Shown here piece by piece: positions 1,252-18,679 of a stretch of 29,012 nt of DNA (the stretch's first letter is position 1; every line of letters starts with the position of its first letter). Origin of the DNA: a virus; the IMG/VR virus record IMGVR_UViG_3300037488_001979, positions 1-29,012 of that record, one strand, 5' to 3'. The notes beneath the pieces were generated by a model. The model worked only from the letters and a program-made list of their open reading frames with translations. It made no database searches and was not told the origin of the DNA. The position numbers and the translations under genes are program-made.

Positions 1252-1537
1252 CGGATCCCCCTTGCTCGCCGGCGGACCATCCCGCCGACGAGAGAATAGT
1301 ACGGCAGATGTACGGCAGATGTCCAGCGTATTCTTTCATCGGGCGAAAAATAGTCTGCAATCCGTTGCGCGACAACGCTCTGCCCGCAAGTGTGTCGGCT
1401 GGTCTGGGGGATGCGAGCCCGGACGGTGGGCGCGACGGTACCGCCCCATGGCGCAGCGGGCGCCGCCACGTGCGTTGCGCGGGGCGCCCCGTGCCTGGGT
1501 CATCCCGGGGCGGGATCGAGCCGCTACGGGGCTTGGG
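1252..1537. other. Non-coding interval between the 53-aa gene and the lipoprotein gene
   Basis: This ~290-bp stretch holds the candidate promoter/operator at 1296-1325, a GC palindrome CGGGGCGCCCCG at 1480-1491, and a short hairpin ATCCCG-GGG-CGGGAT at 1502-1516. The hairpin lies about 20 bp downstream of the lipoprotein stop and could be a weak terminator for it. Frames are open on both strands here but are Arg/Pro-rich composition artefacts with no ribosome binding sites. I see no further gene. Confidence 0.4.
1296..1325 (-). promoter_or_regulatory. Candidate promoter with direct-repeat operator for the minus-strand operon
   Basis: Read on the minus strand, TGGACA (plus 1320-1325) is separated by 18 bp from TACTAT (plus 1296-1301), a fair sigma70-like pair about 45 bp upstream of the ATG at 1251. 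The spacer and -10 overlap two exact tandem copies of an 11-mer (plus ACGGCAGATGT at 1301-1311 and 1312-1322). An 11-bp direct repeat, about one helical turn, between -35 and -10 is a classic layout for a dimeric repressor bound side by side, and the operon encodes an RHH protein. Inference from sequence only. Confidence 0.4.
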
Positions 1538-1909
1538 TCACGGCCCAGCCGCTGCAGCCGCGCCGGCGGCGACCAGTCCACCAAACGCCAGGCTGATCCA
1601 TGGCACCTTGGCTCGCGTCTTGACATCCTGGTCGGCCTCACTGAGGTTGGCCAAACCAACCACGCCAGCCGTTGCCAGAGCCACCCCGGCGATCACGACT
1701 CCGGTCCGGGTCGCGCGGGACTGGCGACGGAGCTCGGCCAGCTCTCGGTGTAGCGCGAGGTCTGCGCCCGTGGGAGCTGGGCCAACCGACGGAAGCACTG
1801 CCGAGGTACGTGGCGGCGGCGCGCCAAACTCACGGCGGGTCGGGCCGACCGAGGCGCAGCCGGACGCCAGGATTGCCGCGCAAACGCTGGCGAAAACGAG
1901 GCGACGCAT
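1538..1909 (-). CDS. Phage-encoded lipoprotein
   Basis: The product is 123 aa. ATG at 1909 was chosen because GAAGGAGG lies 7 bases upstream and because translation then opens with a textbook lipoprotein signal, MRRLVFASVCAAILASGCAS, with lipobox LASGC and Cys at residue 18. Longer in-frame starts would destroy the signal. The mature part has a Pro-rich stretch, a helical region (LALHRELAELRRQ), a second hydrophobic segment (TGVVIAGVALATAGVVGLA) and a small Gly/Ala-rich hydrophobic end. It should be lipidated and exported. Known phage lipoproteins include outer-membrane spanins and superinfection-exclusion proteins. The second hydrophobic segment is atypical for an o-spanin. The lone minus-strand position between two RHH genes favours an independently expressed moron (inference). 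Confidence 0.65.
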   Translation of the reverse strand: MRRLVFASVCAAILASGCASVGPTRREFGAPPPRTSAVLPSVGPAPTGADLALHRELAELRRQSRATRTGVVIAGVALATAGVVGLANLSEADQDVKTRAKVPWISLAFGGLVAAGAAAAAGP

Positions 1910-2100
1910 GGTCAGTCCTCCTTCGATGGCGTTCTCCCTTCTGAAAGGCAACACAATTCCCGACATGGGCCCTCCGTTGTCGCAACTGCTCATGCTTCCC
2001 CCACGCCGAACCCAGCAAGACCATCGTCCTACCAACAATCGGTACCAGTCAACAAAAATACATGTTGACAGGACTAGTGCTGTCCGATACCATTCAGTAC
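1910..2100. other. Divergent intergenic region (lipoprotein / RHH gene)
   Basis: This 191-bp region separates divergent genes. Its right part holds the plus-strand promoter (2065-2093), the 16-bp operator-like palindrome and a perfect inverted repeat GTCAACA 2048-2054 / TGTTGAC 2063-2069. That repeat places TTGACA on the plus strand back to back with TTGACT (plus 2047-2052) on the minus strand, so two -35 elements may diverge from one centre. No good minus-strand -10 is visible at the right distance, so the lipoprotein promoter remains unassigned. The base composition is visibly more AT-rich than the surrounding genes. Confidence 0.45.
2065..2093 (+). promoter_or_regulatory. Strong sigma70-like promoter with embedded operator palindrome
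   Basis: TTGACA (2065-2070) is a perfect -35, followed by 17 bp and TACCAT (2088-2093) as -10. Overlapping it, ACAGGACTAGTGCTGT (2068-2083) is a palindrome with one mismatched pair (ACAG-N-ACTAGT-N-CTGT). Transcription should begin near 2099-2101, which is the ATG of the downstream RHH gene. Occupation of the palindrome would block RNA polymerase, so repression by one of the two RHH proteins is likely (inference). Confidence 0.6.
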
Positions 2101-2463
2101 ATGGAACAAGTACTCATCGGTTTCCGCGGGCCGCGGGCCGTTCGCAAGGCTCTTCGCCGCGCCGCAATGGAAGCGAACCAGACGCTCGGGGAGTTTGTCC
2201 TCGGGCGTTTCGACGACGTGTTGCGGACCGCCGAACCCAGCAGTTCAGTTGGTCCGCGTTCCCGCCCTCCCCGGCCCCGAGGTGAGAAGCCCCGGCCCGG
2301 CGGAGGGCGGTCCGCATCTCCCCCGCAAGGGAGCATCCCCGCCGCGGAATGCCCGCGCGCCGCGGCGGTCCCCCTGTGTGACGAGCCTTCCGCGCCTCCC
2401 GTGGACGGCTCACTCCGACCCGGCCGGCGAGTTGCTGCGCCGGCCGGGTCTCCAATCCCCTGA
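2101..2463 (+). CDS. Small RHH-like DNA-binding protein, probably leaderless
   Basis: From ATG 2101 the product is 120 aa. Residues ~1-42 (EQVLIGFRGPRAVRKALRRA, then ANQTLGEFVLGRFDDVL) fit the RHH fold: beta strand, helix, the N-Q-T-L-G-E-F turn typical of Arc/CopG-like proteins, and a second helix. The last ~75 residues are Pro/Arg/Gly-rich low complexity and run through a strong hairpin (2417-2450), so the tail may be little conserved. No Shine-Dalgarno site is possible, because the promoter -10 ends 8 bases before the ATG. The first gene behind the strongest promoter in the window is probably the early regulator. A real but shorter protein with an unnoticed sequencing error in the tail is possible. 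Confidence 0.5.
   Translation: MEQVLIGFRGPRAVRKALRRAAMEANQTLGEFVLGRFDDVLRTAEPSSSVGPRSRPPRPRGEKPRPGGGRSASPPQGSIPAAECPRAAAVPLCDEPSAPPVDGSLRPGRRVAAPAGSPIP
2417..2450 (+). terminator. Perfect 13-bp hairpin, terminator or attenuator
   Basis: GACCCGGCCGGCG (2417-2429) and CGCCGGCCGGGTC (2438-2450) form a perfect 13-bp stem with an 8-nt loop. It overlaps the 3' end of the RHH reading frame and lies upstream of the early operon, with no T-tract. If it stops transcription, it would attenuate everything downstream, as expected at an early-operon antitermination or attenuation point (inference). Confidence 0.5.
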
Positions 2464-2469
2464 GCCTCG

Positions 2470-2493
2470 CCGGTCGTGAGCAACCACGGCCGG
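2470..2493 (+). promoter_or_regulatory. Second hairpin abutting the Shine-Dalgarno site of the next gene
   Basis: CCGGTCGTG (2470-2478) pairs with CACGGCCGG (2485-2493), 9 bp with one T-G wobble, around the loop AGCAAC. The AGGAGGG ribosome binding site starts at the very next base (2494). Stacked behind the hairpin at 2417-2450, it could influence ribosome access or form part of an attenuator. Confidence 0.4.
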
Positions 2494-2503
2494 AGGAGGG
2501 ACC

Positions 2504-2920
2504 ATGCCAGAACCATCCCCGCGCGCACGTGAGCTGCGCATCTCGGAGCCGGGCGTCCGGCGGCTCCAGACCGCCATCGAGTCGATCTGTGGCGCTGAGT
2601 CGCTGATCCGGCGCGGAGTCAACGCGGACTCCAGCCGGGCTGTCCACACCGGGCTCGACGTGATCCGCCGGGCGCTCCCGGCGATCGCCGATGTCCTGCT
2701 GTTCGCGCGGCCGGCGGACATCCGGCCCGAGCTGAGCGTGGCCTACCTGCACCAGGCGTCCGACGACCTGGTCGCGGTGGAGCAGACCGCCAGGATCCGG
2801 GGGCTGGACGACATCGCGGCCCGGATCCATCGGGTCGAGACGATGCTCGATGCGGTCGCCAACATCCTCCCCGCGCACGAGGCGGCCGTCGCCGAGGCGA
2901 ACGCGGGGGTGAGGCCGTGA
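2504..2920 (+). CDS. Helical hypothetical protein
   Basis: The product is 138 aa, with ATG behind CGGAGGAGGGACC. The sequence is almost entirely amphipathic helix (VRRLQTAIESICGAESLIRR, VHTGLDVIRRALPAIADVLL, IAARIHRVETMLDAVANILP), with no membrane segment, cysteine motif or recognised catalytic signature. It is first in the early operon after the attenuator-like hairpins, and its stop overlaps the next start (GTGA). Early-operon proteins of this kind often act against host functions or regulate transcription, but the sequence gives no direct evidence. I do not recognise a family. Confidence 0.7.
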   Translation: MPEPSPRARELRISEPGVRRLQTAIESICGAESLIRRGVNADSSRAVHTGLDVIRRALPAIADVLLFARPADIRPELSVAYLHQASDDLVAVEQTARIRGLDDIAARIHRVETMLDAVANILPAHEAAVAEANAGVRP

Positions 2921-3279
2921 GCGGCCTGGAGCAGCCCCAGGGCGACGATCCGCGGGGGGGCGTCGTCGGGTCGGATGAGCGGCGGGACGCTAGGCGCCTG
3001 TGCCTCGTCTGCGACGAGTGGCGACCGTGCCGCGAGGACCACTACGAGGACGACTACTGCCGCGAGGACTGGGCGGAACAGTACCCGGGCGTTCCGTGGG
3101 GCGAGGACCCGCGGCCAGAAACGGACGAACCGGCGCCGGACTACAGCGAGGAAGAGACGGTGGTGGGAGTCGTAGCTGCGGCGTGTGCGAGAGCGGCACG
3201 ACTCGATCGAGAGGCCAAGGACCGGGCGGACTACTTCGAGGATCGGGAGCGGGATGACGCGGGTCTCCCGCGCGAGTGA
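2917..3279 (+). CDS. Acidic protein with a Cys cluster (possible zinc-binding)
   Basis: The product is 120 aa from GTG 2917 (GTGA overlap with the upstream stop). Residues ~28-48 (LCLVCDEWRPCREDHYEDDYC) hold a CxxC pair plus two more cysteines and a His, set in a strongly acidic region rich in Asp and Glu. This is compatible with a small zinc-binding site. The C-terminal third (VVGVVAAACARAARLDREAK) is helical. There is no membrane segment or known enzyme motif. The acidity suggests a DNA-mimic or protein-interaction role, which is speculation. Downstream are 95 non-coding bases with only a weak 5-bp hairpin before the recombinase gene. Confidence 0.65.
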   Translation: MSGLEQPQGDDPRGGVVGSDERRDARRLCLVCDEWRPCREDHYEDDYCREDWAEQYPGVPWGEDPRPETDEPAPDYSEEETVVGVVAAACARAARLDREAKDRADYFEDRERDDAGLPRE

Positions 3280-3374
3280 CGTTGTGGCGCCCGGCACGGC
3301 TGACCCCCTGCCGAGACCCGCCGAACGTCCGCGTCGTGGTGCTGGGGTGGCGCGGAGACTGAAAGGGGAAAACG

Positions 3375-4490
3375 ATGGGACTCCTGAGAGAAGCGACCGA
3401 CGATGCCGCGCTGGCAAAAGTCGGCATCATGGGATTGCAGGGCAGCGGGAAGACCTTCACTTCCACGCTCATTGCGATCGGGCTGCACAAGCACATCGGA
3501 TCGAAGAAACCAGTAGCGTTCCTTTCAACCGAGCCGGGCGTTGACTACGTCAAGCACAAGTTCACCGCGGCTGGAGTCAAGCTGCTGGTGGCCAAGACCA
3601 AGAGCTTCGTCGATGCACTGACGTTCATGGACGAAGCCGAGCGAGCTTCCGACATCTTCATCATCGACAGCGCCACGCATTTGTGGGTGGAACTGTGCGC
3701 GTCGCATCTTCGCAAGATCAACTCCAACCGAAGGCAGCCGATCACCAAGTTGGAGTTTCAGCATTGGGCCGAAGTCAAGTCGGTATGGTCGCGGTTCACC
3801 GATCGGTTTCTCGATGTGAAGTGCCACGCCATCGTCTGCGGGCGCCTCGGGTACGTCTACGAATTCCAGAAGGAAGACGAAGACAGCAAGAAGGAGCTCG
3901 TCAAGGTCGCTACGAAGATGAAGGCCGAGGGCGAGTTCGGTTACGAGCCGTCGCTCCTCATCGAAATGGACAAGATCCAGACCGGGCCGAACCTCGGTCC
4001 TTCCAAGAAGGCCGGCACGGCCGAGCGTCTCGTGCGCGTGCGGGCGTTCGTCCACAAGGACCGATTCGACACCATTGATGGGATGATGTTTGAGGACCCC
4101 ACGTTTGAAAACTTCCTCCCTCACTTTTCTATGCTCCACATCGGCGGCGCGCACGTCGTAGAGGATCCCGGAAAGTCATCCGAGGGACTATTCAGCGCCG
4201 AAGGCAATGGGGAGTGGACCCGAGAGAAGCGAGCGCGCGAACGGTGGTGTGAGGAGATAGCAGGGCTTTTCACCATGTACAAGCCGGGGCAGACAGCCTC
4301 GGAGAAGGCCGAGAAGGCCAAGCTCTTGCAGGAAGTCTTCGGGACTACGGCATGGACAGCGATTCAGAACACGAGAAGCGACGCCATCCGTGCCGGATAC
4401 TACGCGCTGAAGGCCAAGGTTGCGCCAGACGGACCCGATCCGGTTGAGGCGGTTGAGGCCGGCGAGACCACAACAGAAGGAGCCGAGTGA
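3375..4490 (+). CDS. Sak4-like RecA-fold ATPase (AAA_24)
   Basis: The product is 371 aa, with ATG behind GAAAGGGG. It has Walker A at residues 20-27 (GLQGSGKT) and Walker B at about 94-98 (IFIID). The N-terminal ~230 residues follow the phage AAA_24/Sak4 pattern: P-loop, STEPG after strand 2, IIDSATHLW. The C-terminal ~140 residues (KAEGEFGYEPSLLIEMDKIQ onward) are a lineage-specific extension with lysine-rich helices. Sak4 proteins are RecA-like phage recombinases that promote single-strand annealing and depend on an SSB. The next gene, overlapping by one base, encodes an SSB-like protein, a strong contextual match. A role in phage DNA recombination or replication repair in the cytoplasm is likely. 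Confidence 0.75.
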   Translation: MGLLREATDDAALAKVGIMGLQGSGKTFTSTLIAIGLHKHIGSKKPVAFLSTEPGVDYVKHKFTAAGVKLLVAKTKSFVDALTFMDEAERASDIFIIDSATHLWVELCASHLRKINSNRRQPITKLEFQHWAEVKSVWSRFTDRFLDVKCHAIVCGRLGYVYEFQKEDEDSKKELVKVATKMKAEGEFGYEPSLLIEMDKIQTGPNLGPSKKAGTAERLVRVRAFVHKDRFDTIDGMMFEDPTFENFLPHFSMLHIGGAHVVEDPGKSSEGLFSAEGNGEWTREKRARERWCEEIAGLFTMYKPGQTASEKAEKAKLLQEVFGTTAWTAIQNTRSDAIRAGYYALKAKVAPDGPDPVEAVEAGETTTEGAE

Positions 4491-4900
4491 TGTACGATGA
4501 TGGAGACCTGAACTATAACCCGAGCGACGCGGACCCGTGCTTCCCCGCTATCGACGTTCGGGCGTCGCTCCAGTCGTTCAAGATCATAGACCGTGAGGGC
4601 GGGAAAATGTACGTCCTCACGTTCAGCGCGACCGACGGACGGGTTACGCGCGAGGTAAGCGAGTGCATCATCATGCCGAAGTTTCTTTGGAAGATCAAAC
4701 GCTACGCCTACGCGATCGGAGCGGGCGAGGCGTTTGAAGCGGGGACGTTCAAGCTTCGCGACCAGTTCGGGAAGCCCGTGACCCTGTCGCTAATCGTTGA
4801 CGAGGGCAAGGGAACGCCACGGAACTTCATCGCGGAATACAAGCCGGCCGTGCCGGCAGAGCAGCCGATGGTAGACCCAGGCGGCGATCTGCCGTTCTAG
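4490..4900 (+). CDS. SSB-like single-strand DNA-binding protein, Sak4 partner
   Basis: The product is 136 aa. ATG 4490 overlaps the preceding stop as TGATG, with AAGGAG upstream; the GTG one codon earlier is less likely. The protein is beta-rich in its centre (ASLQSFKIIDREGGKMYVLT, FLWKIKRYAYA) and ends in an acidic stretch closing with GGDLPF. That resembles the SSB C-terminal tip (DDDIPF) that recruits partner proteins. The family is close to DUF669-type phage proteins that accompany Sak4 or Erf recombinases. It probably coats ssDNA and loads the upstream ATPase. The fold is inferred from pattern, not from a structural match. Confidence 0.65.
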   Translation: MYDDGDLNYNPSDADPCFPAIDVRASLQSFKIIDREGGKMYVLTFSATDGRVTREVSECIIMPKFLWKIKRYAYAIGAGEAFEAGTFKLRDQFGKPVTLSLIVDEGKGTPRNFIAEYKPAVPAEQPMVDPGGDLPF

Positions 4901-4910
4901 ACCACGTGTG

Positions 4911-4967
4911 CCTGGGGCTCGCATAACCGGGAAACGCCCGGAGGGTATGGCATTTGCGAGCCCCGGG
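4911..4967 (+). promoter_or_regulatory. Nested stem-loop element A in an intergenic region
   Basis: GGGGCTCGCA (4914-4923) pairs with TGCGAGCCCC (4955-4964), and the stem extends outward to about 13 bp with one wobble (CCT / GGG). Inside the loop CCGGG (4927-4931) pairs with CCCGG (4937-4941) around AAACG. The whole element fills most of the 92-bp gap between the SSB-like gene and the next ribosome binding site. It could terminate or attenuate, or be a structured 5'UTR or protein-binding RNA. Confidence 0.45.
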
Positions 4968-4992
4968 CTTCTACAAACAGGAGGGACACGAG

Positions 4993-5451
4993 ATGGAGTT
5001 TACGTGGGTTACTAAGAGGTCCAGGGCAGGCCACGTCAGGGCTGCGAATGAGGCCGGGACGATGTCTGTCTACACGACCAAGAAGGGCGGCGGGAAGGAT
5101 GTTCGTCTGAGCATTAGCATACGACGAGACATCGTCACGACCGCCGGGATGTCCAGCCATGACTTCGTTCAGTTCGGCTACAACAGCGACCGCCTAGCAA
5201 TCAAGATCAGCACTGACGGCAAGGGTGCGAGGCTGTCCCCGAAGGTGTCGGGAAAGCACAACGGAAGCAGGCTCCGCTGTACGTTCTGTGTGACCAGTGA
5301 GTTCCCGGAGTGTTTCAGGGCTAGGGCGTTGGCCGTTCCGATTCTGGACGTTCAGACAGGACCAGGAATCATCATGTTCTCAGCGAGGTCGGCCGATGCG
5401 TGGGCGAACAGTGGTCGGCAACTTGAACTCATTCAGGGGGTGTCCAAATGA
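4993..5451 (+). CDS. Conserved-looking hypothetical protein, beta-rich
   Basis: The product is 152 aa. I chose ATG 4993 for the AGGAGGG site 9 bases upstream; an in-frame ATG at 4954 lies inside the stem-loop element. The middle (VRLSISIRRDIVTTAGMSSH, FVQFGYNSDRLAIKISTDGK) reads as a string of short beta strands with an AbrB-like cadence (basic strand, small hydrophobic turn, D-x-V-x-F), but the match is too weak to assign. It has two Cys and no membrane segment. It sits in the DNA-metabolism operon and overlaps the next start (ATGA). The function is unknown; a DNA-binding or nucleoprotein role is a guess. Confidence 0.65.
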   Translation: MEFTWVTKRSRAGHVRAANEAGTMSVYTTKKGGGKDVRLSISIRRDIVTTAGMSSHDFVQFGYNSDRLAIKISTDGKGARLSPKVSGKHNGSRLRCTFCVTSEFPECFRARALAVPILDVQTGPGIIMFSARSADAWANSGRQLELIQGVSK

Positions 5452-7734: not shown

Positions 7735-8144
7735 CCCGCCCCGACTCCCGCGCCCTCCGCGCCACGCACCTTCTCTATGGCGCGACAGACGACCAGGTTG
7801 ACAGGCTGCACCCGGTGCGGGCGGCGAGACCGAGGCGGACGGGGCCGACGCCGGAGGGGGTCGTGCTGCACGAGTGTCTCGCCTACCTGAAGCACCGCAC
7901 GCGGTGGTGCCATCGCCTGAACTCCGGCGTGGTGCAGGAGCCGCGCTATCATCGGTACGGATTCCTGGGGCAGCCGGACATCATGGGACAGCTACACGAT
8001 GGGCGGATTCTGTTTGTGGAGTGCAAGTCGGCAACGGGACGGATGACCCCAGACCAGCAACGGTTTTTCGAGTCTGTGCAAAGTGACCATGTTGTGGCGA
8101 TCCTCGCGCGGTCGGTCGCGGACCTTGCGGTGCTTGACTCGTGA
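7731..8144 (+). CDS. VRR-NUC domain nuclease
   Basis: The product is 137 aa. I prefer ATG 7731, which has GGGAG 6 bases upstream and the 22-aa frame ending on it. In-frame ATGs at 7707 and 7725 are alternatives. The sequence matches the VRR-NUC fold (a PD-(D/E)XK nuclease also seen in Fan1 and phage resolvase-like proteins): E48 in VVLHECLAYL, then GQPDIMG with D83, LFVECKSATG with E97-x-K99, and TPDQQRF with Gln109. All catalytic positions are present. Such phage nucleases process branched DNA or act in replication and recombination, in keeping with the Sak4/SSB and helicase genes nearby. Confidence 0.8.
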   Translation: MTRPDSRALRATHLLYGATDDQVDRLHPVRAARPRRTGPTPEGVVLHECLAYLKHRTRWCHRLNSGVVQEPRYHRYGFLGQPDIMGQLHDGRILFVECKSATGRMTPDQQRFFESVQSDHVVAILARSVADLAVLDS

Positions 8145-8199
8145 CCGATCCGGTGATATGGTCGCATCCCTCTGGCGGCATCTCCCCGATGTTGTCGGA

Positions 8200-8229
8200 C
8201 GGAAAGGCCGGGCGGGGTCTCACCGCCTC
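8200..8229 (+). terminator. GC-rich hairpin upstream of the CoiA-like gene
   Basis: GCCGGGCG near 8209 pairs with CGCCCGGC near 8229-8236. Adding G-T wobbles gives about 12 bp around the loop CTCACC (approximate coordinates). It lies in the 121-bp gap after the nuclease and may end or attenuate transcription there. No T-tract follows. Confidence 0.35.
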
Positions 8230-8242
8230 GCCCGGCTGTATG

Positions 8243-8260
8243 CTCCTTGGTGAGAAGGAG
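8243..8260 (+). promoter_or_regulatory. Hairpin that sequesters a Shine-Dalgarno site
   Basis: CTCCTT (8243-8248) is exactly complementary to AAGGAG (8255-8260), the ribosome binding site for ATG 8266, with loop GGTGAG. A 6-bp hairpin would hide the site until melted, for example by a translating ribosome, a protein or temperature. This gene is one of the few in the operon not coupled by a stop/start overlap. Confidence 0.5.
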
Positions 8261-8265
8261 AACTT

Positions 8266-8925
8266 ATGTTGTGGGCGATCAGAAATGGTGAGCGTGTGAA
8301 AGCCGCTCCGGGGCTCAAGTCATCGTGCCCTAGTTGTCAATCAGAACTCGTGGCGAAGTGCGGCGACATCGTCGTCTGGCACTGGTCACACCGGGCAGAC
8401 GAGTGCGACCCGTGGTACGAACCGGAATCAGACTGGCACCTGCAAAAGAAACTGGCGTTTCCTCCCGAGTGGCAGGAAGTCGTTGTCGGCAATCACCGCG
8501 CTGACGTGAAGACTCCGACAATAGTAATTGAGCTTCAGGCGTCGTCCCTCGCGCCGGAAGAGATCACAGAGCGGGAGTCATTCTACGGGCGGATGGTGTG
8601 GGTTCTTCGTGGAAGCGACTTCTGGGACAGCCTGAACTTCCGGCAACGGGATGGCTTCGTTTCGTTCAGGTGGAAGTGGCCCAGGAAGTCTTGGTGGTTC
8701 GCGACGAAGCCCGTTTACATTTGCCCCAACGGATCGACATGGGATGGCCGCGCCCAAGAGAACGATTGGGACCAGAGTATGATCCGCGACCTTGGCCGAT
8801 CAATGTTCCTCATCAAGAAACTCCACCACGAGACACCATGCGGCGGCTGGGGTCAGTGGGTCACGGAACTGGATTTCTTCCGCAGTGTGGGCTTCACGAC
8901 ATCACCCCTTGAGCCTACACTATGA
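8266..8925 (+). CDS. CoiA-like nuclease (competence protein CoiA family)
   Basis: The product is 219 aa, with AAGGAG upstream. It has the CoiA-family layout: a short N-terminal beta unit, a CCHH-type zinc finger (C21-x2-C24 ... H39-W-S-H42), then a PD-(D/E)XK-like core with ESDWHLQKKL, NHRADV (D80) and VIELQASSL (E89-x-Q91). E-x-Q in place of E-x-K is usual in CoiA. The C-terminal ~90 residues are Trp-rich (VSFRWKWPRKSWWF). CoiA proteins are best known from natural transformation, where CoiA acts in recombination. In phages, homologues sit among replication genes and probably process DNA. The start is behind a Shine-Dalgarno hairpin, and the stop overlaps the helicase start (ATGA). Confidence 0.75.
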   Translation: MLWAIRNGERVKAAPGLKSSCPSCQSELVAKCGDIVVWHWSHRADECDPWYEPESDWHLQKKLAFPPEWQEVVVGNHRADVKTPTIVIELQASSLAPEEITERESFYGRMVWVLRGSDFWDSLNFRQRDGFVSFRWKWPRKSWWFATKPVYICPNGSTWDGRAQENDWDQSMIRDLGRSMFLIKKLHHETPCGGWGQWVTELDFFRSVGFTTSPLEPTL

Positions 8926-10584: not shown

Positions 10585-10887
10585 ATGCCCACACTGCCCA
10601 GCCTGCTCCGCTCCCTACCCGACGCCGCCCTCATGGCCGAGCTCATCCGACGCTGGCCCGGCCGGCGCCTGAGGATCCCCAAGCGGGCCCACATCCCCGA
10701 GGTCGAGATCCTCGCGGCGGTCATCCACGAGATGGACTCCCACGGCTGGACGCAATGGCGCGCCTGTTGCCGGGTAGCCCCTACCCTGGATTTGCACCGG
10801 GGCACAATCTGGCGGATTGTCCAGGGGCGGCGCAAGCAAGCCCGCTGTCGCGCTTCTGGGGTCGATCCCGAGTACGGGCACGGGTAG
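10585..10887 (+). CDS. Small HTH-type DNA-binding protein
   Basis: The product is 100 aa, with ATG behind CGGGAGGCCCC. The first ~35 residues (LLRSLPDAALMAELIRRWPG, then RRLRIPKRAH) echo the Mor/C-type phrase '...rlyIPk'. Residues ~50-82 (GWTQWRACCRVAP, then LDLHRGTIWRIVQGRRK) read as a helix-turn-helix with a basic recognition helix. It is the only gene between the candidate origin and the late genes. It may bind the 11-mer repeats, act as the late-gene activator, or both; this is inference. The next 133 bases have no gene but contain an inverted repeat TCTAGC (10959-10964) / GCTAGA (10980-10985) and no clear sigma70 promoter. Confidence 0.5.
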   Translation: MPTLPSLLRSLPDAALMAELIRRWPGRRLRIPKRAHIPEVEILAAVIHEMDSHGWTQWRACCRVAPTLDLHRGTIWRIVQGRRKQARCRASGVDPEYGHG

Positions 10888-11020: not shown

Positions 11021-11626
11021 ATGCCGAAGCCTGCCGCGCTACCCAGGGACGCTACCTGGCGATCCCGGATTGTCGAATCCGCGGACGTTGACCCCGCGAC
11101 CCTAGTCGCCAACCCCCACAACTGGCGCACGCACCCACCAAACCAACGCGCCGCGATCAACGGCGTCTTAAGCGACGTGGGCTGGGTCGCGCGCATCCTC
11201 GTCAACCGCACGACCGGCCGGATGATCGATGGGCATCTCCGCGTTGAGGAGGCGATCCGGGTCAAGGCCGCGACCGTGCCCGTGGACTTCGTCGAGCTGG
11301 ACGAACGCGAGGAAGCGATCGTGCTCGCGACGCTGGACCCGATCGGGGCGATGGCGCAGACGGAGCGGACGAAGCTGGACGAGGTGATTCGCGCGGCGCA
11401 GACGACGGACGCGGACGTGCAGAGGTGCATTGCGGAGTTGGCGGAGCGGGAGAAGCTCTACCTAGGCGCGGGGGCGAACGAACCCGAGGACCGCGCGCCA
11501 GCACCAGCCATCAAGGCAGCGCTCGCAATTCCCCCGCGGGTATGGCTGACCATGCGCGATGACCTGGTACGGGCGATCGAGGAAGCCGCAGCCGGTTTCG
11601 GCGTGAGTGTCAAATGGGCCTCGTGA
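11021..11626 (+). CDS. ParB-like nuclease-domain protein
   Basis: The product is 201 aa. The N-terminal ~110 residues match the phage ParB/Srx-like domain: VDPATLVANPHNWRTHPPNQ, GVLSDVGWVARILVN and GRMIDGHLRVEEAI. These contain the conserved N-P-x-N-W-R-x-H-P, the G-W turn and the D-G-H-x-R motif that binds nucleotide in ParB-family folds. The C-terminal ~60 residues are helical and may be a dimerisation or linker region. In phages this domain is often upstream of terminase or fused to methyltransferases, and its role is unresolved (DNA nicking, CTP-dependent clamp, packaging). There is no fused methyltransferase here; instead the next gene, overlapping by 13 bases, encodes a radical SAM enzyme. 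Confidence 0.75.
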   Translation: MPKPAALPRDATWRSRIVESADVDPATLVANPHNWRTHPPNQRAAINGVLSDVGWVARILVNRTTGRMIDGHLRVEEAIRVKAATVPVDFVELDEREEAIVLATLDPIGAMAQTERTKLDEVIRAAQTTDADVQRCIAELAEREKLYLGAGANEPEDRAPAPAIKAALAIPPRVWLTMRDDLVRAIEEAAAGFGVSVKWAS

Positions 11627-12921
11627 TCGGCAAGCTCGGCTTCGGGAAGGATGAGTTCTTCTACGGGCTCGACCTGTGCCTGCACAAGGCCGGACGCACC
11701 GCCTATGTCATCGACGAACGCACGGCTCAGGCCTGTGATGTGATCTTGATCACGCTCTTCTGGTGGCGGGATATCTACCTGCTTGAGTCGTTTCTGCGCA
11801 AGGCGGGCATTCGCAAGGGCGGCGGTGGGCCGGTCCTAATTGCCGGCGGCATGCAAGCAACGATGTGCCCGGCTGTGATCGGCAAGATGGTTGATGTGGT
11901 CTTCATCGGCGACGCGGATGATGAGCTGGGGAGCATGCTGGACCAGGCTGAACGCGGCGAGCAACCCGAGTCCGCGCACCTATACCGAGACGGAGATGCC
12001 GTGGTACCGGCGCCGAAAGAGTGTGCTCCTTCGGCCTTCGCCCTGCACAAGGGCGGCAAGCGCGATGTGGTGCGCATCGAGATTGCCCGTGGGTGCAAGT
12101 TCGCCTGCGGGTTCTGTGCACTCACAGGCCTGAAGAGCTATCGCGAGGTTGCCTTCGCAGACATTGAACCGCTCCTTGCGATCTCCAGCCCGGCGCCCGT
12201 GTCGCTCTTCGCCCCTGAGCGAACGAAGCACTCAGAGTGGCCGGAGATCTCTGGCTACCTTGAATCGCACAACCGACGCGACCTTGGCCAGGACGTACGG
12301 CTTGAGCAACTCCAGGAAATCAAGACCAGCTCGGTCACGTTCGGTCTTGAGGGCATCTCCCTGCGTCTGCGCAAGTCGATCGGCAAGGGCTGGAAGGAAG
12401 AGTTCGTTCTCGATCGCCTGCGCAACTTTGTCGAGACGCGCAACGGTGTGGCGATGGTGTCGGTCTACTTCATCGCGGACCTACCCGGCGAAGATGAAGG
12501 CGACTGGGCCGAACTTCGGCAGCTCTTCGAGAAGATCGAAGCAGCCGAGTGGAGCCGCAGGCTTACGCTCAAGCCGGTGCTGAATCCGTTCAGCCCGAAG
12601 CCGTTCACGCCACTTGCCAACGCGGAGATTCACCCGTTCAGACCGTACGGAGAACGCTGGCGCACCATTCTGCGCAAGGGCGGATCCGGGCAGTGGGGTT
12701 TTCGCTGCGTTGAAACGATGGTCTGGGGGCCATTCGAGAGGATTCTTGACGTCATCGCGACCCGTGGCGGGGCGGATGCCTACGAGGTTGTTCGTCGGCT
12801 GCCGCCGAGGCTGCTCAGCGGAAAGCCTCCCGTTGCCGACAACGAGCGTACTGCGCGGCAGATCTTGGACCTCGCGGCTTCATTCGGCCTGACTGAGGAG
12901 CTTCTCGGGGTGGCGGCATGA
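11614..12921 (+). CDS. Radical SAM enzyme with N-terminal Rossmann-like domain
   Basis: From ATG 11614 the product is 435 aa. GTG 11623, overlapping the ParB-like stop as GTGA, is a credible alternative start. Residues ~1-110 resemble the B12-binding-type Rossmann domain of B12-radical SAM enzymes (VLIAGGMQATMCPAVIGKMV, VFIGDADDEL), but I see no D-x-H-x-x-G cobalamin motif. The radical SAM core holds the [4Fe-4S] motif C161-x3-C165-x2-C168 (IARGCKFACGFCALTGLKSY). Downstream family landmarks are FGLEGISLRLRKSIGKG (~243-259) and YFIADLPGEDEGDW (~285-298). It should cleave SAM to a 5'-deoxyadenosyl radical. The substrate is unknown. It sits between ParB-like and TerS genes with overlaps at both ends. 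Confidence 0.85.
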   Translation: MGLVIGKLGFGKDEFFYGLDLCLHKAGRTAYVIDERTAQACDVILITLFWWRDIYLLESFLRKAGIRKGGGGPVLIAGGMQATMCPAVIGKMVDVVFIGDADDELGSMLDQAERGEQPESAHLYRDGDAVVPAPKECAPSAFALHKGGKRDVVRIEIARGCKFACGFCALTGLKSYREVAFADIEPLLAISSPAPVSLFAPERTKHSEWPEISGYLESHNRRDLGQDVRLEQLQEIKTSSVTFGLEGISLRLRKSIGKGWKEEFVLDRLRNFVETRNGVAMVSVYFIADLPGEDEGDWAELRQLFEKIEAAEWSRRLTLKPVLNPFSPKPFTPLANAEIHPFRPYGERWRTILRKGGSGQWGFRCVETMVWGPFERILDVIATRGGADAYEVVRRLPPRLLSGKPPVADNERTARQILDLAASFGLTEELLGVAA

Positions 12922-13373
12922 CCCCCGCCCGCCCCGACATCGAAGCCCGCCGCCGCATGGTCGCCAGCATGATGGTGCAGGGGTTTCACCTCGACGCGAT
13001 TACGAAGGGGATCTCGACGCAGTTCACAAACCCCAAGACGCAGCAGCCGTACAAGCGCGACGCCGTCGCCCGGGACATGCGGGAGCTCAAGGCTCAATGG
13101 TGCGCCGAGGCCAAGGCCGACATCGCCGAGCTTCGCGGTCGACAGCTCGCCGAGTTGGCAGAGCTGAAGCGCAAGGCGTGGACGAAGGACGACCTCTCCG
13201 AAGTCCGCATGCTCATGGACCGCGAGGCAAAGCTCCTTGGCCTGGACGCGCCGGTCCGCATCGACGTTCTCGGGCTGGCTCGCTCGCTGGCTGAAGCCGC
13301 AGCCCGCATGGCCGGGATGACCGATGAAGAGATCGCAGCGGTTGGCAACCGCGCGGCGGAGTTGGCAGCGTGA
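12918..13373 (+). CDS. Terminase small subunit (probable)
   Basis: The product is 151 aa; ATG overlaps the radical SAM stop (ATGA). Residues ~8-55 form an N-terminal helical DNA-binding unit (RRRMVASMMVQGFHLDAITK ... KRDAVARDMRELK). A central coiled-coil follows, then the phrase common in small terminase proteins, EVRMLMDREAKLLGLDAPVR. The helical C-terminus (VLGLARSLAEAAARMAGMTD) may form the TerL-docking part. TerS oligomers recognise the packaging start site and hand DNA to TerL. The call rests mainly on position directly before TerL and on this motif. Confidence 0.65.
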   Translation: MTPARPDIEARRRMVASMMVQGFHLDAITKGISTQFTNPKTQQPYKRDAVARDMRELKAQWCAEAKADIAELRGRQLAELAELKRKAWTKDDLSEVRMLMDREAKLLGLDAPVRIDVLGLARSLAEAAARMAGMTDEEIAAVGNRAAELAA

Positions 13374-14848
13374 GCCCCGTCTTCGTCGAAGAGAAGGCCG
13401 GGATCAAGCTCGCAATGAGCAAAGCCCAGCAGGCGATGACCGAGGCTTTCAACGCGCGTCGGCTGTCGAGTGGAGTCAACCTTCTGCGCCCACCGATCGA
13501 AACAGACGACCAGCTCCGGGCCTACATGGCCCAGCGCTTCGGTGTGCGCATCCCCGACGTGCAAGTCTGCCCGAATCACTCGACCCCTTGGCGCGCGTTC
13601 GCCGATGCGTTCTTCGCCCGGAGCCCCATCGCCGTCTGGAAGGCTTCGCGCGGTCTCGGTGGCAAGTCGCACCTACTCGCTGGGCTCGGCCTGGCCGAGG
13701 CGACTGCGATTGCCGCAGACGTCAAGATCCTCGGTGGCTCCGGCGAACAGGCGAAGCGAGTTCACGAGTCGATGCAGAGCTTCTGGTCTCACCCCCTGGC
13801 CCCTCGATATCTGCTGACCGCGGACCCCACGCAGCGCGGCACGAGGCTGACGAACGGCGCGCGCATCGAGGCGCTGCTGGCGTCGCAGGCGTCCGTGCGC
13901 GGCCCGCACCCGCAGCGGTTCAGGGCGGACGAAGTGGACGAGATGGATTGGGACATCCTCGAGGCCGCGCGGGGCATGCCCCAGGATGGCCGCGGGATCC
14001 TTTCACAGACGGTCCTTAGCAGCACCCACCAGTACGAAGACGGGACGATGACCAGGATCCTCGACGAAGCCGAGACCGCGGGTTGGCCCGTGTATGAGTG
14101 GTGCTACAAGGAGTCGATGGCCGGCTCTGACGGCTGGCTCACCGAGGCGACCAAGGAGCGCAAGCGCGAGACGATGAGCTCCGACGCCTGGAGCGTCGAG
14201 GTGGAGTTGCAGCGCCCGAACGCCGAGGCGAAGGCGATCTCGGGCGCGGCCGTGGACAAGATGTTCCGCCGCGACCTCGGCGTCTTCAAGGGCGACAACG
14301 GCGAGTATATCGAGATCGAGGGCCCGCAGCCGAACGCGGACTACGCGCACGGGGCGGACTGGGGACGGCGAACGGACTGGTGCATCATCTGGACCTTCCG
14401 CACGGATGTCTTTCCCGCGCGTCTCGTGGCCTTTGAGCGCCGGGGCCGCACCGATTGGCCTGAGCTGACTGCGCTACTCGACGACCGCCAGCGTCGCTTC
14501 GGCGGCCAAGCGCGGCACGACGGCACCGGGCTGGGCGACGTGATCGACCAGTTCCTGCAGGTGCGCGCTGAGGGTATCTGGCTTGCTGGCAAGGTGCGGC
14601 AAGAGCTCTTCTCTGGCTACGTGCTCGGCATCGAAGCGGGGAAGTTTGAGGCTCCGATGATCGAGTGGGCCTACAAGGAGCACAAGCGCTGCACGCACGC
14701 GGACCTTTACGGAGCGGGACATCCGCCTGACACGGTCGTGGGTGGCGCGCTCGCTGCGTCGCTCTTCGCCGTACAGGTGCCGAGGTTCACCGAATCATCT
14801 GTGGCGTTCCCCTCTCGTGACAACGTCGAGGCAGCCCCATGGGACTGA
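13370..14848 (+). CDS. terL: Terminase large subunit
   Basis: The product is 492 aa from GTG 13370 (GTGA overlap with TerS). ATPase: Walker A-like KASRGLGGKS (residues 91-100), Walker B with D187-E188 in RFRADEVDEMD, and coupling motif SSTH (217-220). Nuclease (RNase H-like): D330 in HGADWGRRTDW, D384 in RHDGTG and D454 in HPPDTVVGG. All expected acidic residues are present and the length is normal. It packages phage DNA into the prohead, cutting concatemers. The 3' end overlaps the portal gene by 10 bases, as in a tightly coupled packaging operon. The subfamily (cos or headful) cannot be decided by eye. Confidence 0.9.
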   Translation: MSPVFVEEKAGIKLAMSKAQQAMTEAFNARRLSSGVNLLRPPIETDDQLRAYMAQRFGVRIPDVQVCPNHSTPWRAFADAFFARSPIAVWKASRGLGGKSHLLAGLGLAEATAIAADVKILGGSGEQAKRVHESMQSFWSHPLAPRYLLTADPTQRGTRLTNGARIEALLASQASVRGPHPQRFRADEVDEMDWDILEAARGMPQDGRGILSQTVLSSTHQYEDGTMTRILDEAETAGWPVYEWCYKESMAGSDGWLTEATKERKRETMSSDAWSVEVELQRPNAEAKAISGAAVDKMFRRDLGVFKGDNGEYIEIEGPQPNADYAHGADWGRRTDWCIIWTFRTDVFPARLVAFERRGRTDWPELTALLDDRQRRFGGQARHDGTGLGDVIDQFLQVRAEGIWLAGKVRQELFSGYVLGIEAGKFEAPMIEWAYKEHKRCTHADLYGAGHPPDTVVGGALAASLFAVQVPRFTESSVAFPSRDNVEAAPWD

Positions 14849-16287
14849 TCACCCGCACAAGAGACGCCGTGCAGGCGTGGCGGCACGGGCGGGTCATCGA
14901 GATGCAAGTCCCTGCCGGGCAGGACACGCTCGTCATGGGCCTACCCGCCGAGAGGTGGGATCCCTACTCGTGGAACACGACGATGGGACTCCGTACGATT
15001 GACGACCTCGTGCAGACCAAGGGCATCGGCATCTACCGCGAAATGATGCACAAGGATCCGCACGTTTCTTCGTGCGTCTACCTTCCGATTATGGCGCGAC
15101 TGTCCAGCGGTTGGGACTTTGTTCCCGCCAGTGACGAGCCGGAAGATGCGCGCGTGGCCGAGTTCGTGCGGTTCGCTCTGGACAAGATGGTGTCGCGCCT
15201 GTTGACCGATGCGATGGAGGCGTTGCCGATCGGGTTCTCCTGCATCGAGCGCATCTGGGGTGAGCCGTACACGACGGGCGAGTGGTCTGGGTTCCAAGGC
15301 TACCGCGCGTTCCGCCCGCTTCCGCAAGAGACGGTGACGTACAAGCGCGACGAACACGGCGACATGGAGCCGGATGGTGTGTGGCAGGCGAAGTCGGATC
15401 ACCCGGGCAGCATGGTTACTCCCGGTCTGGATCCAGCGTTCTTCACGAAGATGCCGGCGGACCGATTCATTCGCTGGTACTGGCGCAGTGAGTACGGGAA
15501 TCCGCTGGGGCTGTCGATTCTGCGCCCGGCCTACGCGCCATACTTCTTCAAGCAGTTGGTTGTCAAGCAGTGGGCTCGGTACATGTCGAAGCATGGGCTT
15601 TCCGGGGTTCGCGTAAGGGTACCGGCGAACGCAACAAAAAAACAGATGGATGACGCGGTCGAGTACGCGCGGCGCTACCAGACCGACCTTGTAATGGCAT
15701 ACCGCGACGGAACGGACATCGTCATCGATTCGCCGAATACGGCCGCGACGATGAACTACGAGGCCGGGATCACGAGCGCGAACAAGGAGATTGCGCACGC
15801 TTGTTTGCAGCCGTCGACGTTGCTGGATGTCACGGATCAAGGATCGTATGCGCTGGCCAAGGAGCAAAGCGGGACGTTCACTTGGTTCCTCGACAACGTC
15901 GGTGGGCTGCTCTCCGAAGAGGTCATGCAGCAGCAGGTGATCCGTCCGCTCGTGACGGCCAACTTCGGCCCGCAGTACGAGTGCCCGTGGTTCACGTTCC
16001 GGGGCTTCTCGCAGCCGGACCGGGAGTCCATTGCGCGCATGATTGACCTGCTTGTGCGCGCTGGTATGGACGTTCCGAAAAGTTGGATCCGTGAAACGCT
16101 GGGTGTGCCGGAGGTGTCGGACGAACAGGACCGTCTCAACCCTCCGGCGGTTGCTGCGCCGATGCCTCCGGCGACCGTTGCGATGTCGGGCGACGCGGAC
16201 CTCGATGCGCTGTTGCAGGAGTTCACGGCGGCACGGTGGACGGGCGACCGGGACCGTGGGTGCGCGGCGCTGCGGGGGATCCGATGA
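14839..16287 (+). CDS. Portal protein (DUF935, Mu gp29-like)
   Basis: The product is 482 aa; ATG overlaps the TerL end. Characteristic DUF935 features are IYREMMHKDPHVSSCVYL early, the WYWRSEYGNPLGLSILRPAY segment and the GTFTWFLDN/LLSEEVMQQQVIRPLV region before a Pro-rich C-terminus. Portal dodecamers form the DNA entry channel, bind TerL and nucleate head assembly. The type is that of Mu-like phages, which matches the following F-like and I-like genes. The stop overlaps the next start (ATGA). Confidence 0.85.
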   Translation: MGLITRTRDAVQAWRHGRVIEMQVPAGQDTLVMGLPAERWDPYSWNTTMGLRTIDDLVQTKGIGIYREMMHKDPHVSSCVYLPIMARLSSGWDFVPASDEPEDARVAEFVRFALDKMVSRLLTDAMEALPIGFSCIERIWGEPYTTGEWSGFQGYRAFRPLPQETVTYKRDEHGDMEPDGVWQAKSDHPGSMVTPGLDPAFFTKMPADRFIRWYWRSEYGNPLGLSILRPAYAPYFFKQLVVKQWARYMSKHGLSGVRVRVPANATKKQMDDAVEYARRYQTDLVMAYRDGTDIVIDSPNTAATMNYEAGITSANKEIAHACLQPSTLLDVTDQGSYALAKEQSGTFTWFLDNVGGLLSEEVMQQQVIRPLVTANFGPQYECPWFTFRGFSQPDRESIARMIDLLVRAGMDVPKSWIRETLGVPEVSDEQDRLNPPAVAAPMPPATVAMSGDADLDALLQEFTAARWTGDRDRGCAALRGIR

Positions 16288-17321
16288 CCCGGGCCCAGGC
16301 GATTGCTCGCCGGACCCTCTGCCTGGACTTGGTCCCGGCCGATGCCTATTGGCGCGAGCCAACAGTTTCCGAGGCGAGGCTCGACTTCGCTGCGGCAGAA
16401 GAAGCTGATGGGCGTGCGCTCCACGGCTCTCGGCTTCGCCTCGGGATTCTGCTTGGCGCCCAGCGCAACGCGGTGATCCTCAGGACGCGGAGCCCGCGGT
16501 TCTCCCCGGCACTGGCCCGGTTCACCCCTGCGTTTCTCGGCCGGCAGATCGCCCGCGAGTTCGTGCGCATCCATGCCCGGGGATACTCGGACGGGATGCG
16601 TGAGGCTGGGGCGACTGATGGGCCGGGGCAACGCGGCACGGATCGGCTCGTGTCAGAGGCTAAGGCGGCCGGCTATGCGTTCACGGACCGCGCCCTTGCC
16701 TCGGTCCGTCGCTCCATTCAGGACGCATTCACGATTACGGGCCAGCGAGTCAAGCCGCAGGAGCAGCTCGAAGCCGAGATCCGCACGGCCTACGCCAAGG
16801 TCATCGAGCCCGCGCCCGAGACGCAGCCCATCGAGATACGTTTCGCTACTCCGCTGGGCATCGCGTACAAGGCGTGGGAGATCCGAAACTCTCCGATCTC
16901 GGCGTACCTCGACGTACTGTTCGAGGCGTTCGCGGGCGACGGGCTGCCCCAGCTCACGACCTCGACGCTGTCGCGCGTGGTGAGCACGGAGCGCAATCGG
17001 CTCCTGAACGCAGGGGTGTACGAGACCGCGCTGCTCGATGAGGAGGTCGAGTACCTCCAGTACTCCGCGCTCATGGGTGCGTGCCCGAAGTGTAAGACAC
17101 TCGACAAGACCGTACGCCCGAAGAACGACTACTCATTCTGGGGGTTCTACACTCCGCCGATCCATCCGAGCTGCCGATGCTCCGCGGTGCCGGTGAAGGG
17201 CCAGGAGCAGCAGCCTACCGAGCGAGAGGTCGTTGACAAGCTGCTCGATTCGATCGGCCAGGGGATGCCACCAGGGTTCGGGGGTTATGACCCTCGGTAT
17301 GAGATTGGAGCGACACGATGA
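16284..17321 (+). CDS. Mu F-like minor head protein (head morphogenesis)
   Basis: The product is 345 aa. I chose ATG 16284 for the ATGA overlap with the portal stop; a longer in-frame start at 16236 lies inside the portal gene. The N-terminal half is helical (ARFTPAFLGRQIAREFVRIH). The C-terminal half has the Phage_Mu_F/SPP1 gp7 signature: VVSTERNRLLNAGVYE, two CxxC-type cysteines (ACPKCKTLD) and the terminal YTPPIHPSCRC. These proteins are minor virion components that bind portal and DNA and are needed for correct head assembly. The tail of about 40 residues after CRC is lineage-specific. The stop overlaps the protease start. Confidence 0.85.
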   Translation: MTRAQAIARRTLCLDLVPADAYWREPTVSEARLDFAAAEEADGRALHGSRLRLGILLGAQRNAVILRTRSPRFSPALARFTPAFLGRQIAREFVRIHARGYSDGMREAGATDGPGQRGTDRLVSEAKAAGYAFTDRALASVRRSIQDAFTITGQRVKPQEQLEAEIRTAYAKVIEPAPETQPIEIRFATPLGIAYKAWEIRNSPISAYLDVLFEAFAGDGLPQLTTSTLSRVVSTERNRLLNAGVYETALLDEEVEYLQYSALMGACPKCKTLDKTVRPKNDYSFWGFYTPPIHPSCRCSAVPVKGQEQQPTEREVVDKLLDSIGQGMPPGFGGYDPRYEIGATR

Positions 17322-18679
17322 GCGAGCACGTTGCGATCCTAGAGAATCGGGACGGGTTCGATCCGCAGACGCTACGCACGCAGGACGCGGGCCCGGGCGT
17401 GCAGGTCGTCACCGGCTGCCGCCATGGGTCGCGCACGAGCGAGGGGGTCGAGTACCGATTCTCCTCTGAGACGTTCGATGCGGCGGCGGCTGCAGCCTGG
17501 TGCGCAAGCAAGGGCGTACTCGTCCGCTCCTTCGCCGCGGCCTCATCCGATGCGCTCACCCTCGAAGCCGACGGCACCTACACGCTCCGCGGCATCGAGT
17601 GTGCCGAGGAAGGCACCTGGTACGCGGACGTGGGTGGCAAGGTGGAGCTGACCGCCGCGATGCTGGACAAGGCGACCGATGAGACCAACGCGGCGATTGG
17701 GCTGCTCAAGCCCGCGCTCACCCTGGGCCACCTGTCGGGTGGCAAGCAATGGGTGGCCGTGCCGGATGGTGGGCAGCCGCGGCTCGGGTTCGCCTCGAAG
17801 TTCTACAGGCGCGGCAAGAAGGTCCTCTGTGATCTCCAGCGAGTTCCGGCCGCGATCGTCAAGGCCATCCGCCTCGGCATGTGGGGCCGGATCTCCCCGG
17901 ATCTCATGCTTGGCTGGCCGGACCCCACGACGCAGGAGCGGCGGCCAATCGTGTTCACCGCGCTGGCGTTGCTCGGTGCGACTCCGCCAGCGATCAGCAC
18001 CTTACAGGACCTATCGGATTGGATCGACGGACAGACCGTAGCGAAGGCGGCGACGGCCGAGATGGCGCTGTCTCTGGCCCTGAGCGACGTGGTGTCCGTC
18101 GTCAGTTGTGAAGCGCCCGCGGCTGTGAGTGCAGCGGTCGGGCAAGACGAGGGCAAGAACAACATCAAGAACGTAGGAACCGAAGGAGGTTCACAGATGG
18201 ATGAGGAGCAGATCACCGCTCTCGTCAAGAAGCTCATCGCGGAAGCGCTGGGCGCGGCGAATGCGAGTGAGGCCGACATGGCTGCCAAGAAAGAGATGGC
18301 GGCCATGCGAACGAAGCTCTATGACGCGCGGCTCAAGCAGGCCGCCAAAGACGGGAAGATCAAGCCGGGCGAGATCGCGACGATGGCGCCGGTCCTGATC
18401 GAGATGAGCATCGGGGCCGCGGATGCGTACCTCGAAGCGATCGACGCTCGCGACGGGGCGATCCAGCCGACGAATGCGCTTGGGAATCCGGTGGCGCAGG
18501 TGGATCCCACGGCCGGGCTGACGGGCGAGGCGAAGCTGATCGCTCTGGCCAACGGTCTGTGCAAGGCCGAGGGGATCCCGTTCCGCGATGCGTGGATTCG
18601 CATCGGCAACGAGCACAAAGACGAGTACGCGGCCTACCGGCTCAGCGCGTTCCCGTCCATCCAAGCGAAGGAGGCCTGA
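17318..18679 (+). CDS. Mu I-like head maturation protease fused in frame to scaffold
   Basis: The product is 453 aa; ATG overlaps the previous stop (ATGA). Residues ~85-260 resemble Mu gpI-type proteases: KPALTLGHLS (candidate catalytic H138), then GMWGRISPDLMLGW (candidate nucleophile S193) and the PIVFTALALLGATPPAISTL strand. From residue 294 a helical scaffold-like domain follows (EQITALVKKLIAEALGAANA ...). Such proteases clear scaffold and trim capsid protein during maturation. Just before codon 294 there is a strong AAGGAGG and ATG, so the gene probably makes two products, protease-scaffold and scaffold alone. Confidence 0.7.
   Translation: MSEHVAILENRDGFDPQTLRTQDAGPGVQVVTGCRHGSRTSEGVEYRFSSETFDAAAAAAWCASKGVLVRSFAAASSDALTLEADGTYTLRGIECAEEGTWYADVGGKVELTAAMLDKATDETNAAIGLLKPALTLGHLSGGKQWVAVPDGGQPRLGFASKFYRRGKKVLCDLQRVPAAIVKAIRLGMWGRISPDLMLGWPDPTTQERRPIVFTALALLGATPPAISTLQDLSDWIDGQTVAKAATAEMALSLALSDVVSVVSCEAPAAVSAAVGQDEGKNNIKNVGTEGGSQMDEEQITALVKKLIAEALGAANASEADMAAKKEMAAMRTKLYDARLKQAAKDGKIKPGEIATMAPVLIEMSIGAADAYLEAIDARDGAIQPTNALGNPVAQVDPTAGLTGEAKLIALANGLCKAEGIPFRDAWIRIGNEHKDEYAAYRLSAFPSIQAKEA
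18197..18679 (+). CDS. Nested in-frame scaffold protein
   Basis: An internal start, ATG 18197, lies 7 bases behind AAGGAGG (18183-18189) in the same frame as the protease. It would give a 160-aa C-terminal product starting MDEEQITALVKKLIAEALGA, with long helices and an Ala-rich middle as in phage scaffolds. Lambda (Nu3 in C) and Mu (Z in I) use the same nested arrangement. Few internal Met codons in this window carry so complete a ribosome binding site, so the start is probably real. Confidence 0.65.
   Translation: MDEEQITALVKKLIAEALGAANASEADMAAKKEMAAMRTKLYDARLKQAAKDGKIKPGEIATMAPVLIEMSIGAADAYLEAIDARDGAIQPTNALGNPVAQVDPTAGLTGEAKLIALANGLCKAEGIPFRDAWIRIGNEHKDEYAAYRLSAFPSIQAKEA

Follow-up and report, generated by a model that had tools for sequence, protein, structure and literature searches.

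A radical SAM gene overlaps its neighbors at the terminase locus

The window analyzed here (29,012 bases) spans one complete entry of the IMG/VR virus collection, an incomplete contig classed there without a completeness value. At its packaging locus, an intact open reading frame (ORF) of 435 amino acids, which encodes a radical SAM (rSAM) enzyme, lies between a ParB-like gene and the putative gene for the small terminase subunit (TerS). The genes in this part of the window are as follows.

10585 to 10887, + strand: small gene 5' of the ParB-like gene, weakly like phage late transcriptional activators (phrog_836, E value 5e-4)
11021 to 11626, + strand: ParB-like gene
11614 to 12921, + strand: rSAM enzyme of the B12-binding rSAM class (motifs, profiles, AlphaFold2 model, Foldseek)
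12918 to 13373, + strand: putative small terminase subunit, TerS (76% identity to its equivalent in L004, the nearest relative; precedes TerL; phrog_645)
13370 to 14848, + strand: large terminase subunit, TerL (phrog_9, E value 1.1e-5, a weaker assignment; 80% identity to L004)
14839 to 16287, + strand: portal protein, Mu type (Portal_Mu, 3.8e-52)
16236 to 17321, + strand: MuF-type head protein (Phage_Mu_F, 3e-6; phrog_115)
17318 to 18679, + strand: head maturation protease (phrog_976, 1.2e-11)

As stated in the original prediction, which was made from the letters of the window, the rSAM ORF overlaps both of its neighbors. It shares 13 bases with the ParB-like ORF and 4 bases (ATGA) with that of TerS. 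The TerS call itself is weaker (phrog_645, annotated 'Rnase E', 8.5e-12) and is supported by the genes that follow, which after TerL run in the order Mu-type portal, MuF, protease, and major head protein. The small gene upstream of the ParB-like gene is conserved in L004 at 57%; in Stenotrophomonas phages, Mor-like activators are found upstream of ParB. Farther upstream in the window, positions 8266 to 8925 match the CoiA N-terminal domain (3.3e-7), directly upstream of a helicase-like gene.

Motifs, profile matches, and predicted fold of the rSAM protein

Two parts of the rSAM protein are of particular relevance.

11614 to 12003, + strand: N-terminal Rossmann-like (B12-domain-like) region with a conserved FWW loop (TIGR04013/TIGR04014 and MgmA alignments, AlphaFold2 model)
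12094 to 12117, + strand: CxxxCxxC motif (C161, C165, C168) of the [4Fe-4S] cluster (family conservation)

The gene had been read as encoding a full rSAM enzyme with a Rossmann-like N-terminal domain, and both parts of this description were borne out. The ORF carries the motifs C161-x3-C165-x2-C168 (CKFACGFC), GLEGISLRLRK, and LPGE, and it matches Pfam Radical_SAM at 3.9e-7, slightly over the curated cutoff. The CxxxCxxC motif is kept in all 21 rSAM family sequences that span the motif region, and a YRE motif is present in every one of these except that of L038. Comparison of the rSAM genes of two relatives, L113 and L116, gave a dN of 0.11 and a dS of 1.7, and the resulting dN/dS of ∼0.06 indicates that the gene is under purifying selection between them. 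Since the family keeps the rSAM motif and this ratio is low, a chance ORF can be excluded.

The profile searches that had been proposed as a check returned three NCBIfam matches for the window protein, to TIGR04013 (3e-16; 59.2 bits versus a cutoff of 251), TIGR03960 (1.8e-13; 49.9 bits versus 462), and TIGR04014, the MgmA family (1.1e-9; 37.6 bits versus 360). All three scores lie far below the curated cutoffs, and membership in the TIGR03960 and MgmA families was therefore rejected; the three profiles were matched by 10 of 11 rSAM family members. TIGR03960, a bacterial B12-binding rSAM family, aligns with the window protein over the barrel and the C-terminal region, including the RPFRE/KPYRE motif, but its genes are chromosomal and lie next to ribosomal-protein and RNase G-type genes, whereas the window protein is phage-borne.

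AlphaFold2, with the family alignment as input, produced a model of the rSAM protein with a pLDDT of 82.5 and a pTM of 0.81. When this model was compared with the PDB by Foldseek, MgmA (9ccb) was the top match (E value 2.2e-14), followed by MiaB-type proteins, RimO, and OxsB, which is a cobalamin enzyme, and a search of PDB sequences with the rSAM family profile likewise placed MgmA first (1.4e-13). A Rossmann domain ahead of the rSAM barrel is present in the model and in its matches to MgmA, MiaB, and OxsB. MgmA, a cobalamin rSAM glutamine C-methyltransferase belonging to TIGR04014, thus has the same arrangement of Rossmann domain and barrel, but it is archaeal, acts on a protein, and shares 17% identity with the window protein in the structural alignment. 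In the profile alignment, the conserved FWW/YWP loop of the family (the W50 region in the window protein) lay opposite the SLQSTIH loop of MgmA, which we take to be the carrier of Gln49. In MgmA, Gln49 is the residue nearest to the lower face of cobalamin, and in other characterized B12 rSAM enzymes this position is hydrophobic (PMC11796369). Given the fold and the place of the FWW/YWP loop in this alignment, use of cobalamin by the window enzyme is plausible. MiaB and RimO are similar in overall fold, but membership among these methylthiotransferases was rejected, since none of the three N-domain cysteines of the methylthiotransferase type (auxiliary cluster) is conserved in the rSAM family alignment and the window protein has no Pfam match to a TRAM domain.

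The ParB-like protein consists of a core, a linker, and a tail

The upstream ORF had been assigned as ParB-like, and this was confirmed by its match to phrog_620 (1.3e-10), by a PDB profile search in which the ParB family profile matched Spo0J/ParB/Noc CTPases (2.8e-12), and by an AlphaFold2 model that matches ParB folds in Foldseek. The GxxR box of the ParB/Srx core is present, with G71 and R74 invariant in the ParB family alignment. The protein divides into three parts.

11021 to 11332, + strand: ParB-like core, residues 1 to 104, the exchangeable part (89% identity to L004; ParB/Spo0J/Noc fold)
11333 to 11500, + strand: helical extension and low-confidence linker, residues 105 to 160 (LDPIGAMA segment; pLDDT)
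11501 to 11626, + strand: C-terminal tail, residues 161 to 201, predicted rSAM docking segment (tail-A profile)

The LDPIGAMA segment of the extension is common to the window and the Suso/QH16 ParB. In the model of the window protein, linker residues 151 to 158 have a pLDDT of <50, and the tail beyond them is ordered, mostly with a pLDDT of 83 to 96.

The ParB-rSAM pair recurs beside unrelated packaging genes

Our scans covered 2.9 million viral contigs; all of the loci found are metagenomic, and many of the contigs are fragments. Single-sequence scans yielded no close relatives of the window rSAM, and family alignments were needed. Scanning with the ParB alignment returned 80 loci, with an rSAM gene directly behind ParB in three of them (L068, L023, and L038), and scans of viral contigs with the rSAM alignment alone brought in the remaining rSAM loci. 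After near-identical contigs were merged, the same rSAM family was present in 21 further distinct phage loci, or 22 including the window. Since the contig of L116 starts inside the rSAM gene, 21 loci (window included) were testable, and a ParB-like gene lies directly upstream of the rSAM gene in 19 of these, the ParB of L120 being counted by its 43% identity to that of L125. In L108 and L121, ParB is encoded on the same contig at distances of 3.7 and 1.4 kb, and every rSAM locus whose upstream side is present has a ParB-like gene on its contig. The rSAM of L038 is divergent and was found via ParB only, and it was not used as proof; between it and the terminase genes of L038 lies a second small ParB-like ORF (7837 to 8253). 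Directly upstream of the pair in L114 is an IS605 OrfB/TnpB-type gene (4136 to 5308).

Large terminase genes were detected by Pfam near at least 15 rSAM loci, a count that leaves out L092, L110, L114, L120, L121, and L125, and they belong to GpA (lambda type), TerL_ATPase/nuclease (HK97/P27 type), and Terminase_6 (T4 type). Three unrelated TerL families thus stand beside the pair, which has been kept while the packaging genes differ. This survey of the ParB-rSAM-TerS order, which had been proposed with the original prediction, placed the gene at the same position in about 20 phages whose packaging genes are unrelated. On the evidence of gene order, we conclude that phages with no other relationship to each other have kept the ParB-rSAM pair, adjacent or on one contig, at their terminase locus.

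The phage genome collection searched contained no cultured phage with the pair, and a scan of 84,980 genomes with the alignment of one rSAM clade (clade B, see below), based on exact short peptides only, gave no match. Since such peptide-pattern scans miss divergent members, the locus counts are lower bounds and the absence from genomes is weak. The INPHARED matches MT835938 and MT836103 were not counted, being bacterial contigs on which a TIGR03960-type gene adjoins genes for ribosomal proteins; nor was a match in Microcystis phage MaAM05 that lies among bacterial genes (trpS, mqnC, and ispG). The phage-collection records MT835938.1, MT836103.1, and MW495066.1 contain bacterial housekeeping genes and look bacterial in the stretches read.

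The slot between ParB and terminase mostly holds DNA-modifying enzymes

In the 79 loci that were found by ParB alone, the slot is mostly occupied by DNA-modifying enzymes. By motif, ParB-DNA methyltransferase fusions account for 43 of these 79 loci. Among the loci with standalone ParB, where a partner was assigned for part of the set, ParB is followed by TET-associated glycosyltransferases (L019, L029, L037, and L055), Mom proteins (L028 and L082), a C5 DNA methylase (L048; L059 and L072 have similar genes), P-loop-GNAT proteins belonging to phrog_11143 (L024 and L088, with similar proteins in L064 and L065), a TGT-like protein together with QueC (L083), or, in three loci, an rSAM enzyme. L045 contains QueC/QueE-like genes of the 7-deazaguanine type, with a QueE-like rSAM nearby.

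The P-loop-GNAT proteins are fusions of a P-loop/ABC-like ATPase with GNAT, encoded in the ParB-TerS slot (L024, 6558 to 7643; L064, 4415 to 5632; L065, 5437 to 6555; L088, 6528 to 7661), and they are candidate DNA-modifying enzymes; the ParB proteins of these four loci have a common tail of their own. A zinc-ribbon-like tail (CPxCGxEF) was seen in the standalone ParB proteins encoded beside Mom or C5-methylase-like genes in L028, L048, L059, L072, and L077, and in ParB proteins generally the tail may be specific to the partner enzyme.

The ParB tail is inherited with the enzyme while the core is exchanged

In the rSAM tree, clades A and B form one group each, whereas the same labels require 6 and 4 changes, respectively, on the ParB-core tree. 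On the latter, AU tests rejected rSAM clade A as one clade with a p value of 5e-114 and clade B with a p value of 9e-12, and in the reverse AU test the rSAM tree rejected the ParB-core grouping (1e-70). Long branches make exact placements in these trees unsure; the conflict between core and rSAM is nonetheless large. It can also be seen in individual loci. The ParB cores of L023 and L068 are alike (148 bits), but their tails share nothing and their rSAM proteins fall into different clades, and L113 combines an L095-type ParB core with the tail and enzyme of clade A.

The clade-A tail has the consensus KDPNILVRLSFHPGxWLGKREEIxxxLEKMKKTYxCxIKVEE (∼42 residues). In clade-A rSAM loci, a profile of this tail matched every one of the 28 ParB ORFs, versus 0 of 95 others (best E value, 59); many of the ORFs are duplicates from loci already represented. 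In leave-one-out searches, E values were 4e-11 to 4e-24, with the window tail as the weakest at 0.017, which is still ahead of everything outside clade-A loci. Tail A is also carried by the ParB of L108, which was left out when the tail model was built and is encoded 3.7 kb away from the rSAM gene; several genes (700 to 4240) separate this ParB (22 to 681) from the rSAM gene, one of them with a GCLHGCPYCY motif. The divergent ParB of L120, which was missed by the ParB profile, has no tail A. The loci of rSAM clade B have a different ParB tail. Taken as a comparison of sequences and trees, these results show that the ParB core was repeatedly exchanged and that the C-terminal tail and the rSAM enzyme were inherited together.

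The nearest relative of the window lacks this part of the locus. L004 resembles the window in TerL (80%), TerS (76%), and ParB residues 1 to 104 (89% identity); the ParB similarity stops at residue 104, the L004 protein ends after 112 residues, and TerS comes directly next, with the alignment restarting 2 bases ahead of its start codon.

11333 to 12915, + strand: 1583-base segment (ParB extension, tail, and rSAM) without a counterpart in L004, which has 21 unrelated bases instead

Since more distant ParB proteins conserve the segment that L004 is missing, a joint loss of tail and enzyme in L004 is the simpler reading. According to the original prediction, absence of the gene from most related phages would point to chance cargo; its absence from L004 shows instead that the cassette can be exchanged, and does not mean that chance put it there.

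Relation to known systems

The locus type itself is already known as ParB-TLS, described by Iyer et al. (2013, NAR 41:7635), as reported in PMC6536676, with the suggestion that ParB directs DNA modification during packaging. The window shares with it the succession of a ParB-like gene, an intervening gene, and terminase; it differs in that the intervening gene encodes a B12-class rSAM enzyme and in the partner-matched ParB tail, which is seemingly new. The original statement that no described phage system with this exact layout was known thus needs correction for the type of layout but holds for its content, in that no description of rSAM in a ParB-TLS locus was found in the literature outside the 2013 listing, which could already include rSAM. 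A 2025 survey of ParB folds reports phage ParB fusions with DNA methyltransferases, and radical SAM appears nowhere in its text (PMC12704722). These fusions (phrog_498) have the same ParB core family, the same slot, and a SAM-dependent partner, but they perform classical polar methyl transfer within one polypeptide, whereas the window encodes a separate radical enzyme.

Proposed function and alternative explanations

The ParB-like and rSAM genes probably make up a ParB-TLS-type cassette in which two proteins act together to modify DNA, as their conserved position and shared inheritance suggest. In such a cassette, the ParB core would load onto phage DNA, probably in a nucleotide-gated manner like other ParB folds, and the ParB tail would dock the rSAM enzyme, which would carry out radical chemistry with its [4Fe-4S] cluster, SAM, and probably cobalamin. 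The simplest such reaction would be to methylate an unreactive carbon in a base or sugar, its substrate would be the DNA about to be packaged, and phage DNA modified in this way would be protected against host nucleases. More tentatively, the family may modify DNA in a new way, at the level of carbon atoms, through cobalamin rSAM chemistry steered by ParB, with the interchangeable tails acting as enzyme-choosing sockets. If this were the case, phage DNA would hold at least one base or sugar modification that is not yet known and arises through radical chemistry, and phages would have a new means of evading restriction and other defenses that sense DNA. The co-inherited tail predicts a modular adapter, and the long-standing question of what ParB-like proteins do in phages without ParA becomes testable.

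The original prediction had named phage DNA and a virion or host protein as possible targets of modification just before packaging. DNA is much the likelier of these, since the conserved slot elsewhere holds DNA-modifying enzymes and the packaging genes are unrelated. The main rival is nevertheless modification of a protein, be it ParB itself, terminase, or a virion protein, because the enzymes closest in structure have protein substrates: the best-studied structural relatives act on protein (MgmA and RimO) or tRNA (MiaB), not DNA, and the neighbors of the gene serve head formation and packaging. We consider it unlikely. The TerL family differs between phages while the pair stays, so that no shared virion target is visible, ParB cores are exchanged too, and the tail of ParB is the only constant protein partner of an enzyme whose slot is otherwise filled with DNA-acting enzymes. 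Some phage hypermodification pathways, of the phage M6 type, combine rSAM steps with several partner enzymes, and together with the QueE-like rSAM of L045 they would fit an enzyme that makes or alters a free nucleotide or cofactor for hypermodification rather than acting on the DNA polymer. That reading is quite unlikely for the present family: no recurring third gene was noticed, the scanned ORFs of the incomplete window contig include no pathway genes, and the constancy of a ParB-like partner favors DNA as the substrate.

Compared with these, a MiaB-type enzyme that modifies tRNA or rRNA as host-takeover cargo is very improbable; the similarity in fold speaks for it, but the lack of a TRAM match and of conserved N-domain cysteines does not, and a fixed position between ParB and terminase would be unexpected for cargo. 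Least probable of all is that the gene is chance or passing cargo, functionally unlinked to ParB, in a recombination hotspot next to terminase. The variability of the terminase region and the lack of an rSAM in L004 speak for it, but the near-universal pairing with ParB, the joint inheritance of tail and enzyme, and the purifying selection seen between relatives strongly disfavor it, and random cargo was rejected.
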